DNA of 64,000 nt from Fuerstiella marisgermanici (GTDB lineage Bacteria > Planctomycetota > Planctomycetia > Planctomycetales > Planctomycetaceae): assembly GCF_001983935.1 (NCBI RefSeq), contig NZ_CP017641.1, positions 3,286,001 to 3,350,000 on the forward strand, given 5' to 3'. Below, piece by piece: positions 14,270-19,946 of this stretch. The notes under the pieces were generated by a model that was given only the letters and a program-made list of their open reading frames with translations, did not search any database and was not told the DNA's origin. Both the position numbers and the translations under genes were made by a program. Each line of letters opens with the position of its first letter. Position 1 is the first letter of the stretch.

Positions 14270-14839
14270 GTGGTGAAGTTGTTCGAAGCGCTGGCACGAC
14301 TGGACAAAGTCGGCGTGACCGTGGCCCGCCTTGGGTTGATCGTGGTACTACTTTGGATCGGCGGACTTAAGGTGTTTCCTTACGAGGCGGACGGCATCGT
14401 TCCGTTTGTCGCCCACAGCCCCTTCATGAGTTTTTTCTATGCCGATGGCGAAAACTACAAAGCGCACATGAACCCGGAAGGCGTCTTAGACGACGAAAAT
14501 CGAGCGTGGCACGAAGCCAACCACACCTACAAGTTTTCCTATGGTCTGGGTGCCGTGATCGTTTTTTACGGACTGCTGCTCTGTCTGCACCCGTGGTTGC
14601 CACAAGCAGCAACGCTGGGCAGTTTTCTGGTCGTCGTGATGTCGTTCGTGACGTTGTCATTCCTGATCACTACTCCGGAATGCTGGGTGGCAGATCTCGG
14701 CGACGCCCATCACGGGTTCCCGTACCTTAGCGGTCGCGGCAGGCTGGTAATCAAGGACGCTATTATGATGGGGGCGGCAATCGTGACGATGGCTGACTCA
14801 GCAAAGGCTTACCTGAGAAAACGGGCGATGCTGGATTGA
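14270..14839 (+). CDS. DUF417 (YkgB/RclC-like) inner-membrane protein
   Basis: 189 residues from GTG 14270, preceded by GAGAGG. About four hydrophobic helices are visible. Family landmarks are VVLLWIGGLKVFPYEADGIVPFVAHSP near the N-terminus and SFVTLSFLITTPECWV, then GFPYLSGRGRLVIKD near the C-terminus. DUF417 belongs to a DoxX-like group. The E. coli member RclC contributes to survival of hypochlorous acid; the mechanism is not settled. Context with AraC, Crp/Fnr and bufferin genes fits an oxidant/copper-stress cluster. Confidence 0.88.
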   Translation: MVKLFEALARLDKVGVTVARLGLIVVLLWIGGLKVFPYEADGIVPFVAHSPFMSFFYADGENYKAHMNPEGVLDDENRAWHEANHTYKFSYGLGAVIVFYGLLLCLHPWLPQAATLGSFLVVVMSFVTLSFLITTPECWVADLGDAHHGFPYLSGRGRLVIKDAIMMGAAIVTMADSAKAYLRKRAMLD

Positions 14840-14896: not shown

Positions 14897-15616
14897 TCAC
14901 TGGAGGGAATCAGGTTGAGTCAGAACGATTCGTCGACGGTCCATGCGAATCAGTCCTTCGGAACGCAGTTGACCAAGAGTGATCGTGATTGTCTCGCGTG
15001 AGACCCCGATAAAGCGGCCGAGGTCCTGGTGGGAAAGTGGAAGGTGAATCTTGATCCCGTCGCCATCGGGAATTCCGCCGATCTGAGCGAGTTCCTGAAG
15101 GAGGCGGATGACTCGATGGCGAGTTGATTGGAATAAGACGGATTCAAGCCGTCTCGTCATGTTGCGTCGCCTCTGTCCACACAATGTCAGCATTGCAAAC
15201 GCCGCCGCAGCGTTCTGCTGCAGAATCTCGCGTAGTCGTGATGCATGGACTGCGACAATCGAGGAGTCTTCCGTGACATCGCATCGTTCTTCACGACGGC
15301 CTGGAACGCAGACGCCGAGTTCCCCGAATATCTGACCCGGCTGAATGAGTGCGTAGATGACGTGCTTGCCATTGCCGTCAATATGTCCAGTTTGAACGGC
15401 GCCGTGAACCAGAAGATAGGCGTAGAGAGGTGCATCGGTGGCGGAGTAAACGGTGCTTCCGCGCCGGAGCGTAAGATGCTGACAATCTGCAGCCAACTGT
15501 TCGTATTCAGCGGATGTCAACGCCTGCAATGTGTCGCACGATTTCAAGTAGCCTGCGATACGCTCCAATTGCTCGATCCCCGTTTTTGCCACTGACTGCT
15601 GCATTGAAGCCTCCAT
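14897..15616 (-). CDS. Crp/Fnr-family transcriptional regulator
   Basis: 239 residues. The N-terminal cyclic-nucleotide-binding fold spans about 30-150 (GAVQTGHIDGNGKHVIYALI, PGQIFGELGVC). The C-terminal winged HTH contains LSHQDLGRFIGVSRETITIT. The SRET of the recognition helix matches E. coli CRP Arg180-Glu181, the pair that reads TGTGA; the position of CRP Arg185 is not conserved. No N-terminal Fe-S cysteine cluster of the FNR type is visible. The gene is divergent from the bufferin operon, and a perfect CRP-type box lies between them, 181 bases from this start. Confidence 0.92.
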   Translation of the reverse strand: MEASMQQSVAKTGIEQLERIAGYLKSCDTLQALTSAEYEQLAADCQHLTLRRGSTVYSATDAPLYAYLLVHGAVQTGHIDGNGKHVIYALIQPGQIFGELGVCVPGRREERCDVTEDSSIVAVHASRLREILQQNAAAAFAMLTLCGQRRRNMTRRLESVLFQSTRHRVIRLLQELAQIGGIPDGDGIKIHLPLSHQDLGRFIGVSRETITITLGQLRSEGLIRMDRRRIVLTQPDSLQ

Positions 15617-16088
15617 CCCATCCGGAACTCTGCTTTCAAAAAGGCATGACGTCGTACATTTGCTCCGCCACTAAGAACGCAGACATGGCTTCGGCCCATT
15701 CCTTACACCGTCTGTCGAAGGAATGTTGTCATCTGTGAAAGCAGCTCGTAAATCTGCGCATAGGTGCCGATTGACCGGCCGCTTCCCCGCCAGCAATGTG
15801 AGGCACCTCACAATTCAGCCGTCGCTCATTCAGTTCCGGCGTTGTTTCCGGATGACGCCTCGCCCTATCAAACTTGCGGCGCTTAAGGGGCGACAAAAAC
15901 AATCTCAGAAAAGTCTGTAAGGCGCAGAAACATTCGCCGTCTTCGGCAGAAACAAGGCACCAGTCGATGCTTTCGCCGAGCTGCTGATTCGTCAATCGAG
16001 TTTGCTGTTCACAGAACTGACTGGATGTCGTGGTTCAGTTGCGCGACTGAACGAGTTTCTGTGTTTCCCGATTTTTGAGGGGTAAAGA
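15617..16088. other. Divergent regulatory region between Crp/Fnr and bufferin genes
   Basis: No gene seen. It contains the CRP-type palindrome at 15797-15812. A GAGGGG ribosome site precedes ATG 16089. Promoter hexamers could not be assigned reliably. Confidence 0.6.
15797..15812. promoter_or_regulatory. Perfect CRP-type operator TGTGA-N6-TCACA
   Basis: The site reads TGTGAGGCACCTCACA: two 7-base arms (TGTGAGG / CCTCACA) around a CA centre, flanked by A/T bases as in the E. coli CRP consensus. It lies between the Crp/Fnr regulator gene and the bufferin operon, the natural place for autoregulation and control of the operon. Confidence 0.75.
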
Positions 16089-16517
16089 ATGAGTAAGTCC
16101 AATGTAAACCGTCGTGGTTTTCATGCGTTGACAATGGCGGCGGCAGGTGGCTTGATGGCAGGTGCCGGAGCAACCGCTCGAGCAGAAGATGGCAAATCGA
16201 ATCTCACTGTTGATCCGTCGTTGCTGATGTCATCACCCAACACCTGCAAAGGACTCAACGCCTACAAAGGCGAAGGTAAGGGAACTCACGACTGTGCGGG
16301 CATGAGTTCCTGTGCGGAAGTCGCTAAGCATGACTGCTCTGGCGAAAACGACTGCAAAGGGCACGGCGGCTGCGGCGGCTACCCCGGCCAGAATACCTGC
16401 AAAGGCAAAGGTCACTGCGCCGTGCCGCTCAAAAAGGACACCAGGAAGCTCGCACGAAAACAGTTCGAGCAGCTTATGAAGGACGCTGGCAAAAAATTTG
16501 GGCCTGCTCCGAAGTAG
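16089..16517 (+). CDS. bufA: Bufferin-type Cys-rich RiPP precursor
   Basis: 142 residues from ATG 16089 (GAGGGG upstream). Residues 1-33 form an export signal with NRRGF and a hydrophobic stretch ending in ATARA. The core has eight cysteines (53, 69, 75, 83, 89, 95, 104, 110) in repeats such as NTCKG, HDCSGENDCKGHGGC and NTCKGKGHC. The tail is basic. The next two genes encode the DUF692 (MNIO) enzyme and DUF2063 partner that define bufferin operons; these modify precursor cysteines to make copper-binding peptides. Exact bufferin subclass and metal are inference. Confidence 0.85.
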   Translation: MSKSNVNRRGFHALTMAAAGGLMAGAGATARAEDGKSNLTVDPSLLMSSPNTCKGLNAYKGEGKGTHDCAGMSSCAEVAKHDCSGENDCKGHGGCGGYPGQNTCKGKGHCAVPLKKDTRKLARKQFEQLMKDAGKKFGPAPK

Positions 16518-16665
16518 TCACCGTCACAGCTTTTTTTAGACGTGGCGTTCAATCTGCTGTCGTCCCCGCCTCGAACCGTTCCGAGTTTCCCGGAGTTATC
16601 GAGGCGGGTGGCGATGCATTCGACGCGAAGTTCTACTGATCGATCAAATCGTAACAGAGGCCCAG

Positions 16666-17643
16666 ATGTCGGAATCCTCAACGCACTCGAACCTTGGGCT
16701 GGGAGTTGGGCTGCGCACGCCCCATTTTCAGCATGTTCTCAACCACAACCCGGCCGTGGATTGGTTCGAAATCATCTCTGAAAATTTCATGGACTGTAGC
16801 GGCAGACCACGGCACATTCTGGACCAGATTGCTGAACGCTACCCGATCGTCATGCACGGCGTCTCGATGTCGATTGGCAGCACCGCCCCGCTCAACCGTG
16901 ACTATCTGAGTAAGTTAAAAAAGCTCGCCGAAGATGTGCAGGCACGCTGGGTGTCGGACCACGTCTGCTGGACGGGAGTCGCTGGCCTGAATGCTCATGA
17001 TCTTCTGCCGGTGCCATACAACGAATCAACGTTGCAACACCTTGTTGAACGAATTCGAATCGTGCAGGACATTCTGGAACGTCTGCTGATCCTTGAAAAC
17101 CCCAGCACGTATGTCACCTTCCGTGATTCTACGATGACTGAGTGGGATTTTTTGAAGTACATGGTTGAAGAAACGGAATGCCGCTTGCTGCTTGATGTGA
17201 ACAACGTCTACGTGTCTGCCGTCAATCACAATTTTGATCCGGAAGAATACATTCGCGCCGTTCCGCATGATCGAATCGTTCAGTTTCACCTTGCTGGTCA
17301 TACGAACCTTGGCACGCACTGCATCGACACGCACGATGGCGAAGTTATCGATCCGGTGTGGGAACTGTACCGACTGGCTCATCAACTGACCGGCGGTGCG
17401 TCTACGTTGCTGGAATGGGACGCACAAATTCCGGAGTTCCCGGTGCTGCATTCTGAGGTTCTGAAAGCGAAACGACACATTGCGGAAGCGGACGGTTTAA
17501 TGAGCGACTCAACGCATGCCGATGCATCTGATCACCACGAAAGATCGGGGCGAATCACAGCGAACGCGAATTCTTCGCAACGGACTGGATCCACGGCAAT
17601 GGTTCCGCAACCCGCCGTAACAGTCTCAGCGGAGCTTGAATGA
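16666..17643 (+). CDS. bufB: DUF692 multinuclear non-haem iron oxidase (MNIO) for bufferin maturation
   Basis: 325 residues from ATG 16666 (AGAGG upstream). It is a TIM-barrel protein with all family landmarks: [81 protein letters not shown] and [11 protein letters not shown]. The His, Glu and Asp residues in these motifs are the usual iron ligands. Such enzymes oxidatively modify cysteines in precursor peptides, here presumably the product of 16089. The last 45 residues are a polar, low-complexity extension. Stop and next start overlap (ATGA). Confidence 0.93.
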
Positions 17644-18569
17644 TGACATCGCCGCCCAACATTCCCGCGACACCGTCGCTGGATCAGGTGCAACGATGGA
17701 TGCAGGCCGTCATTTTTGACCCGGACGGTATTGAATCGGGATTGGCGTCCGAAGCCGCACGCGATCAGATTTCCGTTGGTCTGTTGGACATCGAAGAAGT
17801 CATCGACGCCTCTCAAACCATGACGAGCGTCGAGCGGCTGCAGGTGTATTCGAACGCCTACTATGCGCGACTGCTGGAGTGTATGCGCGACGAGTTTCCT
17901 GCTTTGGCACACGCGTTGGGCGACGAAACATTCGAAGCATTCGCCTTTGGGTACCTGCAAAGCTACCCGTCTTCCAGCTATACGCTGTGTGATCTCGGTG
18001 CGAACTTTCCCCGCTTCTTTGCGGAAACGCGACCAGCTGACGAAGACGATCCTGAACTTTTCGGTGACTCGGAAAGAACGGCGGCGTCATGGCCAGACTT
18101 TCTGATTGATATCGCGACCGTCGAACGACTCTACAGCGAAGTCTTTAGTGGGCCGGGCGTAGAAGGTCAGAGTATTCTGCCCCCTGAAGATGTGTCGACG
18201 CTTTCTCCAACAGATTTCGCAGCGGCGCGGCTGGATCCGGTGCCGTGTCTTCGGCTGCTGAAGCTCCGCTATCCGGTTCACGAATACATCAGCGCCGTGC
18301 GGCATGAGACCACGCCGACTTTGCCAGAGCCTGCTGCAACCAATCTTGTGGTGACGCGACGCCAGTACGTTGTGCGTCGCTGTACGGCAGACCCTGTGGA
18401 GTTTGAGCTTCTACAAAGCCTGCAATCCGGCCAGGCAATCGGAGCAGCCATTGAATCGGTTGCCTCGCGATCGGATGAAGCCTACGCGATCCTCGAATCC
18501 GAACTGCAGAATTGGTTTCGCCAATGGGCCGTTGCAGGATTCTTTCAACGCATCGAATTGCCAGAGTAG
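17640..18569 (+). CDS. bufC: DUF2063 bufferin maturation partner
   Basis: 309 residues; ATG 17640 overlaps the MNIO stop by four bases. The N-terminal domain (about 60-125) has the DUF2063 pattern [18 protein letters not shown], then [22 protein letters not shown] and [20 protein letters not shown] second domain follows with a winged-helix-like C-terminus. DUF2063 proteins bind MNIO enzymes and present the precursor leader, so this is the substrate-recognition subunit. Confidence 0.92.
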
Positions 18570-19091
18570 CCGCGAATCCGGGTTCGCTAGCGTCTGCCAT
18601 TCGGTTGATTTCGCGTAACGCGATCGCAGTTCAAAGCGTTGTTTCCCGAGCTTCCTCTTCGAGGATTCCTCAGCAGCGAATACGCTCGACACGGCTAATC
18701 TCGCAAAATCCCAGGAAGGCCGGTAAGGCGCGGCACGGACTGGCGTCTGTGATATGAGGACCCTTCGCAAGTCGAAGGTCTCTCGCCCAACACAATTCTG
18801 CACCGGGCAATCTTACTGCGTTTGTCGCTGAGGTGACGGTGCTGGCGCTAGTCGAACCGCCGATGACGTTCGCTCAATCGGTAACCAGATGGGTTGCGTT
18901 CAGTATCACGGCGACGGCGCGGTCGGCGCTGATATCGCTTTTCTGAACAACGCCCTTCCGCCAACTGTGGTGCTGAACTTTACCTCCTTCGATGTGAATC
19001 GGCGGGAGACATTGGGAGGCTAGCTCGCACACGATTCACTTCTCACTGATGCTCGGCTGGGATGAGCGGAGCGAAACACAAAGGAATGACC
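18570..19091. other. Intergenic region with a possible gene remnant
   Basis: A start-less open frame ends at TAG 19021-19023 and reads SIGNQMGCVQYHGD, then ADIAFLNNALPPTVVL. It looks protein-like but has no start, ribosome site or recognised family, so it may be the tail of a lost gene. Nothing else seen. Confidence 0.4.
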
Positions 19092-19946
19092 ATGCTACAT
19101 TTTAATTCGATTTTCGGCCTGCTAATTGCTGTGTCTCTCATGGCTGTATGTGCCGACTCTGCAAATGCCGGGCCGCCGGTTTACGTCGGGCAGCGTGCGG
19201 CTGGACGCATTCCCTTTGAACAAATTAACCATGCACCATGGGATGCATTGCTGGAGAAATATGTCGATCGAGATGGCTATATGAACTATCACGTTCTGCA
19301 TGCTTCCGCCGCTGACCGCCGAACTCTGGACGGATACCTGACGACTTTGTCGCAGGCCAACCTGCAGGCCAAAACTTCCAAAGACGCCACATTGGCGTTC
19401 TGGATTAACGCATACAATGCGGTTACCGTCCACGGAATTTTGCGAGAATACCCGACGACCAGTATTCGAAATCACACGGCGAAATTAGTTGGCTACAACA
19501 TCTGGAAGGATCTGCAACTGTTGGTGGGAGGTCGGCCGTACTCACTGGAGGCTATCGAACATCAGGTCCTGAGAAAGATGGGTGAACCGCGAATTCACTT
19601 TGCGATCGTGTGTGCGTCGATCGGGTGCCCGCGTTTGTTGAATCAGGCCTATACCGCGGCCGATGTTCAGCGACAGCTCGAAACGAACGCACGCGACTTT
19701 TTCAGCCGACCTCAGAACTTTCAGTTCGACATGCGCACCGGGCAATTTCAGTTGTCTGAAATCCTAAACTGGTTCGGTGAAGACTTCGGCCCTGACCAGC
19801 CGGCTCAATTACGAACGATCGCGAAATGGCTTCCCAACCAGGCGGCCCAGGCTGCCGCTCAACGTGGTGCTGGCCGCGTTTCGTTTATCCCATACAACTG
19901 GGACCTCAACGATCAAAGATCGCGCCGCGGTGTCGCGCGGGAATAA
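19092..19946 (+). CDS. DUF547 exported protein
   Basis: 284 residues from ATG 19092, chosen because AAAGGA lies six bases upstream and it gives a clean signal peptide ending near SANAG; in-frame ATGs at 19062 and 19086 are alternatives. The DUF547 landmarks are present: ATLAFWINAYNAVTVHGIL, YSLEAIEHQVLRKMGEPRIH and FAIVCASIGCPRLLNQAYTA. The family's cysteine and histidine suggest a thiol-hydrolase-like active site, but no function has been proved. It appears to be a single-gene unit. Confidence 0.9.
   Translation: MLHFNSIFGLLIAVSLMAVCADSANAGPPVYVGQRAAGRIPFEQINHAPWDALLEKYVDRDGYMNYHVLHASAADRRTLDGYLTTLSQANLQAKTSKDATLAFWINAYNAVTVHGILREYPTTSIRNHTAKLVGYNIWKDLQLLVGGRPYSLEAIEHQVLRKMGEPRIHFAIVCASIGCPRLLNQAYTAADVQRQLETNARDFFSRPQNFQFDMRTGQFQLSEILNWFGEDFGPDQPAQLRTIAKWLPNQAAQAAAQRGAGRVSFIPYNWDLNDQRSRRGVARE

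Follow-up and report, generated by a model that had tools for sequence, protein, structure and literature searches.

The window, by which we mean the whole stretch of 64,000 nucleotides of Fuerstiella marisgermanici DNA that was analysed, contains three consecutive genes on the forward strand that together form an operon. The first (positions 16,089–16,517) encodes a bufferin-like (BufA-type) precursor of 142 aa with eight cysteines, located at residues 53, 69, 75, 83, 89, 95, 104 and 110, exactly where the original prediction for this DNA had placed them. The second (16,666–17,643) encodes an MNIO maturase, which matches PF05114 with 363.2 bits (cut-off, 25) in a Pfam search and the NCBIfam model MNIO_BufB with 361.5 bits (cut-off, 310), and which is thereby assigned to the BufB type of bufferin operons. 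The third gene (17,640–18,569) encodes the partner protein (BufC, or PME-type 1), in which DUF2063 (PF09836, 67.8 bits) and NGO1945_C (PF22106, 30.1 bits) both score over their cut-offs; DUF2063 together with an RRE-type domain is the combination of bufferin operons (MNIO-PME1 captophorins). The MNIO and partner genes overlap by 4 nt (ATGA at 17,640–17,643). Both the order MNIO (DUF692) then DUF2063 with this overlap and the assignment to the bufferin type had been proposed beforehand, and these matches bear them out. Judged by its gene content, the operon is of the bufferin type: a small Cys-rich precursor plus an iron enzyme pair predicted to convert cysteines to metal-binding groups. It belongs to a widespread planctomycete branch of the known bufferin family, with an export signal apparently unlike that of the described members. 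The window MNIO is the single PF05114 match in its 8.92-Mb genome.

The 148-nt gap between the precursor and MNIO genes contains a predicted hairpin (16,555–16,618, forward strand), a possible attenuator or mRNA stabiliser. The folding of this gap has a z score of -2.79, and 0 of 200 shuffles were as stable. Among 59 distinct precursor–MNIO gaps, each compared with 40 shuffles and with the MNIO start approximated, z was below -2 in 38 and above 2 in none (mean -2.8). Distant loci have hairpins of different sequence where these were compared; the feature thus recurs without being conserved. A reasonable guess is that the hairpin terminates transcription in part, or stabilises the mRNA, and would so raise the precursor relative to the enzyme. 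Many gene ends have hairpins, and the comparison is with shuffles alone. A scan for promoters and terminators gave nothing beyond shuffle level.

Upstream of the operon, a near-perfect palindrome (GTTCAGTTGCGCGACTGAAC, 16,033–16,052), possibly an operator, is located between the precursor gene and a divergent CRP/FNR-family gene (14,897–15,616, reverse strand). Also close to the operon, and downstream of an AraC-family gene, is a gene for an RclC-like DUF417 protein (14,270–14,839; 267.2 bits, cut-off 275), and a DUF547 gene (19,062–19,946) lies downstream of the operon. When the neighbours in 61 loci were compared, leaving aside the operon genes and any ORFs that overlap them, the most frequent families were DUF547 genes, in seven loci (six genera), CRP/FNR regulators, in five (five genera), and genes for thioredoxin-like proteins, recognised by eye, in ten (five genera); these are too few loci to count any of them as operon parts. 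An example of the thioredoxin-like family, again identified by eye, is the ORF at L209:3193–4062, which contains WCGYC. Inspection by eye of the recurrent neighbours in the 61 loci brought up no copper gene.

The Precursor and Its Relation to Buf2

No Pfam family matched the precursor at E ≤ 1; it hence lacks DUF2282 (PF10048), and membership in the Buf1 group is ruled out. Membership in the oxazolin group is likewise ruled out, because EGKCG repeats are absent from the sequence. The best NCBIfam match is BufA2 (NF050166), with 25.9 bits, below the cut-off of 60 bits, and the same model is matched at E ≤ 0.01 by 56 of 62 aligned homologues. This alignment was taken from a list of 65 rows, of which a row with a chance RR (L057), an acidobacterial 12-Cys precursor (L084) and an 8-Cys precursor whose last Cys is Gly (L213) were left out. 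Pfam DUF7640 was matched at E ≤ 0.01 by 14 of the 62 aligned precursors.

The core of the precursor consists of two halves. The first (16,245–16,316) contains C53, C69 and C75, with Y59 replacing a Cys, and the second (16,329–16,427) contains C83, C89, C95, C104 and C110. In an hhalign comparison, the two halves scored 45.1 with each other, versus a maximum of 22.7 among 100 permutations of the columns and 20.8 when one half was reversed. Against the repeated unit of 12-Cys BufA2-type proteins they scored 44.5 and 68.7, with permutations reaching no more than 24.2 and 23.0; the corresponding scores against the six-Cys Buf2-type unit were 36.2 and 38.7 (permutations up to 15.7 and 25.4). Four loci supplied the 12-Cys unit, and L084 alone scores above the BufA2 cut-off, with 79.3 bits as against 41.5 to 49.6 bits for the rest. 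The precursor is thus homologous to the six-Cys Buf2/BufA2 unit, and most plausibly a degenerate tandem duplication of it. Since its halves match each other and the 12-Cys unit, the nine-Cys protein typical of the family is best read, from these profile scores, as a 12-Cys duplicated Buf2 that lost three cysteines, with the window copy lacking a fourth. The original prediction held that the Cys layout differs from that of the DUF2282 precursors, so that the modification pattern may be new. The layout is indeed unlike that of the DUF2282 precursors, but, given the homology to Buf2/BufA2, it is not new among bufferins as a whole. The internal duplication, like the RR-type signal and the C-terminal helix described below, goes beyond what that prediction mentioned. 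Buf2/BufA2 precursors are described as having 6 or 12 conserved cysteines (PMC12452194, accessible part), as against eight in the window precursor and nine in most of its relatives.

In window numbering, the cysteines of the nine-Cys core are spaced C-x5-C, C-x5-C, C-x5-C-x5-C and C-x5-C. Homologues in genomes of the same class were scored at 71 places, and the core has nine cysteines in 66, eight in three and ten in one. The remaining place (L164:8110) was misread: its start was missed by the pattern, which scored 0 Cys and no RRxF, and inspection by eye gave nine Cys and RRxL. The eight cysteines named in the original prediction are thus not the rule; the window copy has lost one. Six of the nine cysteines occur in all 62 aligned homologues and each of the remaining three in 61, the invariance of C110 being due to the exclusion of L213. 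A basic residue directly follows C53 in 61 of 62 sequences, C59 in at least 55 of 61, C89 in 59 of 62 and C104 in at least 51 of 62. This Cys-then-basic pattern resembles that of the Cys-Lys group in the accessible part of PMC13097082. The window copy is without one of these four basic-flanked cysteines, C59.

The window copy deviates at three of the 36 columns with at least 90% conservation, and two of the 62 sequences deviate at more. Two of its deviations, Tyr at the second of the nine cysteines (C59Y) and Arg at the near-invariant Trp (W119R), are each found in the window copy alone among the 62. It could be argued from this that the window copy is a decaying precursor and by now a poor substrate, all the more so because the sole other genome of the genus in our sample (G172) has neither a precursor nor an MNIO match. 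The reading frame, the signal and eight cysteines are intact, however, as are the MNIO and partner genes, and pN is 0.19–0.23 versus a pS of 0.86–0.88 (saturated) in comparisons with three near relatives, so that we give decay only a small chance. The window copy is a slightly reduced member of its family, and perhaps not the best first test case.

Bufferin-like cores also occur within larger ORFs. At L159:1749–2819, a DoxX domain (PF07681, E 1e-17) and a bufferin-like core are combined in one ORF located between the MNIO and DUF2063 genes, and in Plesiocystis (L080:2632–4956; start uncertain) a Ferritin-like domain (PF12902, E 4e-35) is followed by a bufferin-like core in an ORF that adjoins the MNIO gene.

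The Predicted Export Signal and the C-Terminal Helix

The precursor begins with a predicted signal peptide (16,089–16,184) that is twin-arginine-like (NRRGF, residues 7–11, with RRGF at 8–11). It is predicted to be cut after residue 32, where A30-R31-A32 precede E33, so that the protein is predicted to be exported; the window copy has no lipobox. Conservation of RR within the alignment is circular, because its members were chosen for RRxF, but the 71 class places were not selected for RR, and 69 of them have RRxF before the core, the other two having RRxV and RRxL (by eye). In 44 of the 62 aligned sequences, a Cys occupies one alignment column where the signal ends, which is interpreted as a lipobox; the window copy has Ala there. 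In the Tat consensus, Leu directly follows the Phe and a basic residue stands two positions after the Phe. The fit of the precursor signals to this consensus is partial: K or R is present two residues past the Phe in 51 of 62, and H, S, N or T stands directly after the Phe, in place of the Leu, in 55 of 62. The Tat-signal model TIGR01409 matched the window copy at E 0.21 and 6 of the 62 relatives at E ≤ 0.01; at the latter threshold, the Rieske Tat signal was found in five and the formate Tat signal in two. The signals of the RR precursors are less hydrophobic (median 1.63) than those of 14 bufferin-type precursors without RR (median 1.98; p 6e-6). The latter signals were delimited by eye, 11 of them in precursors with six, eight or twelve cysteines and three in four-Cys precursors. 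The genome of F. marisgermanici encodes TatC (203.7 bits), and RRxF signal and TatC are thus both present, as for a Tat substrate.

An alternative explanation is that the RRDF segment has nothing to do with Tat, that export is by Sec, and that the RR pair is a leader motif read by the DUF2063/RRE partner. The low number of TIGR01409 matches and the replaced Leu are in line with this, and a Sec signal peptide is the leader for bufferin and oxazolin in the accessible part of PMC13419390. The basic residue two past the Phe, the weaker hydrophobic stretch and the matches to some Tat models point the other way, and we consider Sec export unlikely, while giving it serious weight. We keep to a twin-arginine-like signal, through which the precursor would be exported.

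Bufferin signal peptides have been described as Sec (PMC12452194, accessible part), and compared with these the RRxF twin-arginine-like signal looks new. In the literature, covered with few subscription papers included, no relevant report tying an MNIO to twin-arginine export was found; under the name MNIO, a paper on ChrH was the one hit that mentions planctomycetes, and under the name DUF692 there were five. The acidobacterial 12-Cys precursor over the BufA2 cut-off (L084:4565–4924) also begins with an RR-type signal (MKRRDF), so that this signal is not limited to the nine-Cys form. The Tat system is generally held to carry folded proteins, and for this reason a Tat route, if true, could answer the problem of export before modification. 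How a signal-bearing precursor escapes that fate is a question raised in PMC12452194 (accessible part).

The segment that follows the core (16,434–16,511) includes a predicted helix (residues 116–132) with the motif W-x3-R-x3-E, in which W119 is Arg in the window copy. In an AlphaFold2 model of the precursor based on 62 sequences, mean pLDDT was 55.9 and block means exceeded 70 solely at residues 111–140; this helix is the only one predicted within those blocks, and the rest of the model is poor. The motif W-x2-[AVT]-[RH] is present in all 26 actinomycete homologues and in all but two of 77 RR-type precursors (75), the window copy being one of the two without it. It is absent from the four twelve-Cys Buf2-type proteins and from two others with six and eight Cys. 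Three of the precursors (L076, L077 and L078) have a long C-terminal extension, and that of L078, the one scanned, gave a weak Big_1 match (E 0.011). The helix looks new as a lineage feature, and it may be a follower recognition element.

The actinomycete homologues, from 26 loci between L053 and L092, mostly have eight Cys, with the Cys of DCAG replaced. They keep the helix, yet they appear to be without a signal peptide: in 23 of the 26, the top 17-residue hydrophobicity before the core is below the minimum of the RRxF set, 0.98 (medians 0.57 vs. 1.52), subject to uncertain ORF starts; the exceptions are L069, L072 and L089. This combination would fit recognition partly by a follower rather than by a Sec leader alone. 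The eight actinomycete partners that were tested all have DUF2063 over cut-off, and none matched NGO1945_C at E ≤ 0.001. Precursors that have no signal but a DUF2063 (PME-type 1) partner would contradict the link, reported in the accessible part of PMC12452194, between signal-less precursors and PME-type 2 partners. With RR-signal planctomycete precursors and apparently signal-less actinomycete ones sharing a C-terminal helix, leader versus follower recognition becomes directly testable.

Co-Retention with the MNIO and Its Specificity Site

A sample of 248 genomes of the class, the own genome counted, was drawn from a larger group. Precursor homologues were found in 69 genomes at E ≤ 0.01 and in 66 at E ≤ 1e-3, the latter in 72 places; the one place not among the 71 scored above is, by deduction, a fragment at a contig edge (G146:C235:31–312). 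PF05114 is present in 94 genomes. A BufB-like MNIO (at least 340 bits) is present in 65, the threshold being set post hoc after a gap between 341 and 300 bits and PF05114 rows below 229.9 bits being kept outside the co-occurrence table. Of the 66 precursor genomes, 64 have such an MNIO, which disposes of the concern, raised with the original prediction, that homologues of the precursor might occur mostly without MNIO genes. Two genomes (G198 and G203) have the precursor without any PF05114 match, and one of the 65 (G155) has a BufB-like MNIO without the precursor. The co-occurrence has a Fisher p of 7.5e-56, a value that overstates independence because the genomes are related. Precursor and MNIO genes are linked, defined as sharing a contig and strand and lying no more than 5 kb apart, in 53 genomes, and both are present but unlinked in 11, eight of them from one genus. 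In one of the unlinked pairs (G201), the genes lie about 3 Mb apart on one contig; the other ten are on different contigs. Co-retention of precursor and MNIO is thus near-absolute in the class sample, unlinked cases included, which makes these genomes a natural set for trans-acting MNIOs. Two Schlesneria MNIO genes (L038:3996–4928 and L041:3996–4928) have no adjacent precursor gene and are preceded by a carbonic anhydrase-like ORF (by eye).

The BufA2 model gave 13 genomes at E ≤ 0.001 in the sample and 0 over the cut-off; it also found nothing in a Caulobacter vibrioides control, a species in which Buf2 is spoken of in the accessible part of PMC12452194. These negatives are weak, because the control with a reported Buf2 was missed as well.

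We also analysed a tree of 110 MNIOs, rooted at the midpoint. All 44 rows with an RR signal and 8–10 Cys fall in one branch of 67 rows (support 95/96), which they share with 12-Cys acidobacterial rows, and five six-Cys Buf2 rows, four pseudomonadote and one bdellovibrionote, are in the neighbouring branch (84/84), four of them grouped together; one 12-Cys row (L093) was labelled 6 Cys by the script. Redundancy filtering left 7 of the 11 unlinked MNIOs in the tree, and all seven group within the same clade as the linked MNIOs. A bin labelled Klebsiella pneumoniae (L095), probably in error, contributes an MNIO on a long branch next to a planctomycete row. The two precursor genomes without an MNIO match and the 11 unlinked pairs are what could be expected if the precursor were an unmodified protein of the metallothionein or disulphide type and the MNIO worked on another target. 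We regard this as very improbable in view of the co-retention in 64 of 66 genomes, unlinked cases included, the placement of the seven unlinked MNIOs of the tree in the same clade as the linked ones and the homology of the precursor to Buf2.

An alignment of 29 MNIOs, including that of the window, shows no variation at E35, H64, H99, E144, N145, D177, N180, H208, D221, E250 and D252, and conservation of 90% or more at H223. These conserved residues of the window MNIO presumably include the iron ligands, and its putative metal site is thus as intact as had been predicted. Iron ligands among the conserved MNIO residues are in part also given by PMC13419390, as far as accessible. Residues were mapped by alignment to 3BWW, whose E-R-D-F was taken as Asp249-Phe250 of FonB; by this mapping, D252 is probably the catalytic base and A253 probably occupies the site of the specificity Phe. 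This site is Phe in Lys-Cys MNIOs and Asp in Cys-Lys (Buf2-type) MNIOs in the accessible part of PMC13097082. The sequence EWDA is found at the site in 108 of 109 MNIO ORFs close in sequence to that of the window (phmmer E < 1e-115), a planctomycete-type group that is defined by E value, includes a few other phyla and counts duplicate fetches. Elsewhere, Asp is present in 26 of 31 actinomycete MNIOs and EWDA in 5 of 30 others. Ala is also present in the MNIO of L084, the locus with the 12-Cys precursor that scores over the BufA2 cut-off. Compared with the described bufferin systems, Ala at this known specificity site looks new, although the L084 enzyme makes it not unique. A motif in the C-terminal tail of the MNIO (66/109, 11/31 and 0/30 in the same three sets) was dropped because the pattern was judged too loose.

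The near-uniform EWDA in the window-like MNIOs, as against the Asp of most actinomycete ones, might mean that the window MNIO makes a different modification, or targets another set of cysteines, than in Buf1 and Buf2. We find this rather improbable: the enzyme scores over the BufB cut-off and its metal-site residues are conserved, Ala and EWDA also occur outside the group, in L084 beside a BufA2-passing precursor, and the F250A variant of FonB still yielded modified product (PMC13097082, accessible part).

Proposed Role and Comparison with Known Systems

We think it likely that the operon makes a Buf2-derived metallophore whose cysteines are oxidised in the cytoplasm and which is exported by a twin-arginine-like signal to buffer a metal, probably copper. 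The MNIO and DUF2063 proteins would bind the precursor in the cytoplasm and oxidise a subset of its cysteines; by analogy, 5-thiooxazoles (-4 Da each) are the most likely products. Once modified, the precursor would leave via its twin-arginine-like signal, which is predicted to be of the signal peptidase I type here and often of the lipoprotein type in relatives, and would, again by analogy, buffer metal outside the cytoplasm. The homology to Buf2 as a degenerate duplication, the BufB class of the MNIO, the PME-type 1 partner, the near-absolute co-retention with the MNIO in the class sample and the conserved RRxF are features of the sequences themselves. We infer the cysteine chemistry, the set of reacting cysteines, the use of Tat, the metal and recognition via the signal and/or the C-terminal helix, with chemistry and metal taken from the work on Buf1, Buf2, oxazolin and fontiphorin (PMC12452194, PMC13097082 and PMC13419390, accessible parts). 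Points against this proposal are the BufA2 score of 25.9 versus 60 bits, the weak Tat-model scores and the missing Leu, Ala rather than Asp at the specificity site, C59Y and W119R, the pLDDT of 55.9 and the lack of copper neighbours recognised by eye.

A bolder version, which we put forward tentatively and hold to be possible rather than probable, is that a bufferin exported by Tat arose in Planctomycetota. In it, a duplicated Buf2 unit would undergo modification, and perhaps folding or metal loading, in the cytoplasm before being exported in folded form. Recognition would be partly via the C-terminal follower helix, with the enzyme acting in trans on unlinked precursors in some lineages.

Among the known systems, the window operon shares with Buf2/BufA2 (NF050166; Cys-Lys captophorins) the homologous six-Cys unit, the order precursor-MNIO-DUF2063, a basic residue after several cysteines and an MNIO above the BufB cut-off. 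It differs from them in that the window family has nine cysteines (eight in the window copy), which stem from a duplicated unit that lost some, and the window precursor scores below the BufA2 cut-off, and in its RRxF signal (which L084 also has), its extra conserved C-terminal helix and the Ala at the MNIO specificity site. The Buf1 (DUF2282) bufferins have the same type of enzyme pair and the same operon order, but the window precursor is without DUF2282 and has another Cys layout. Oxazolin and fontiphorin (EGKCG, Lys-Cys captophorins) have the same combination of MNIO and PME-type 1 partner, whereas the window precursor has no EGKCG repeats, and the Arg16 and Phe250 sites of fontiphorin FonB appear to correspond, through the 3BWW alignment, to Thr18 and Ala253 in the window MNIO. 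Finally, the RiPP-lipoproteins of MNIO clusters (DybA and some bufferins) resemble the 44 of 62 relatives with Cys at a lipobox-like position, but the window family has an RR-type signal, and the window copy itself is without a lipobox.
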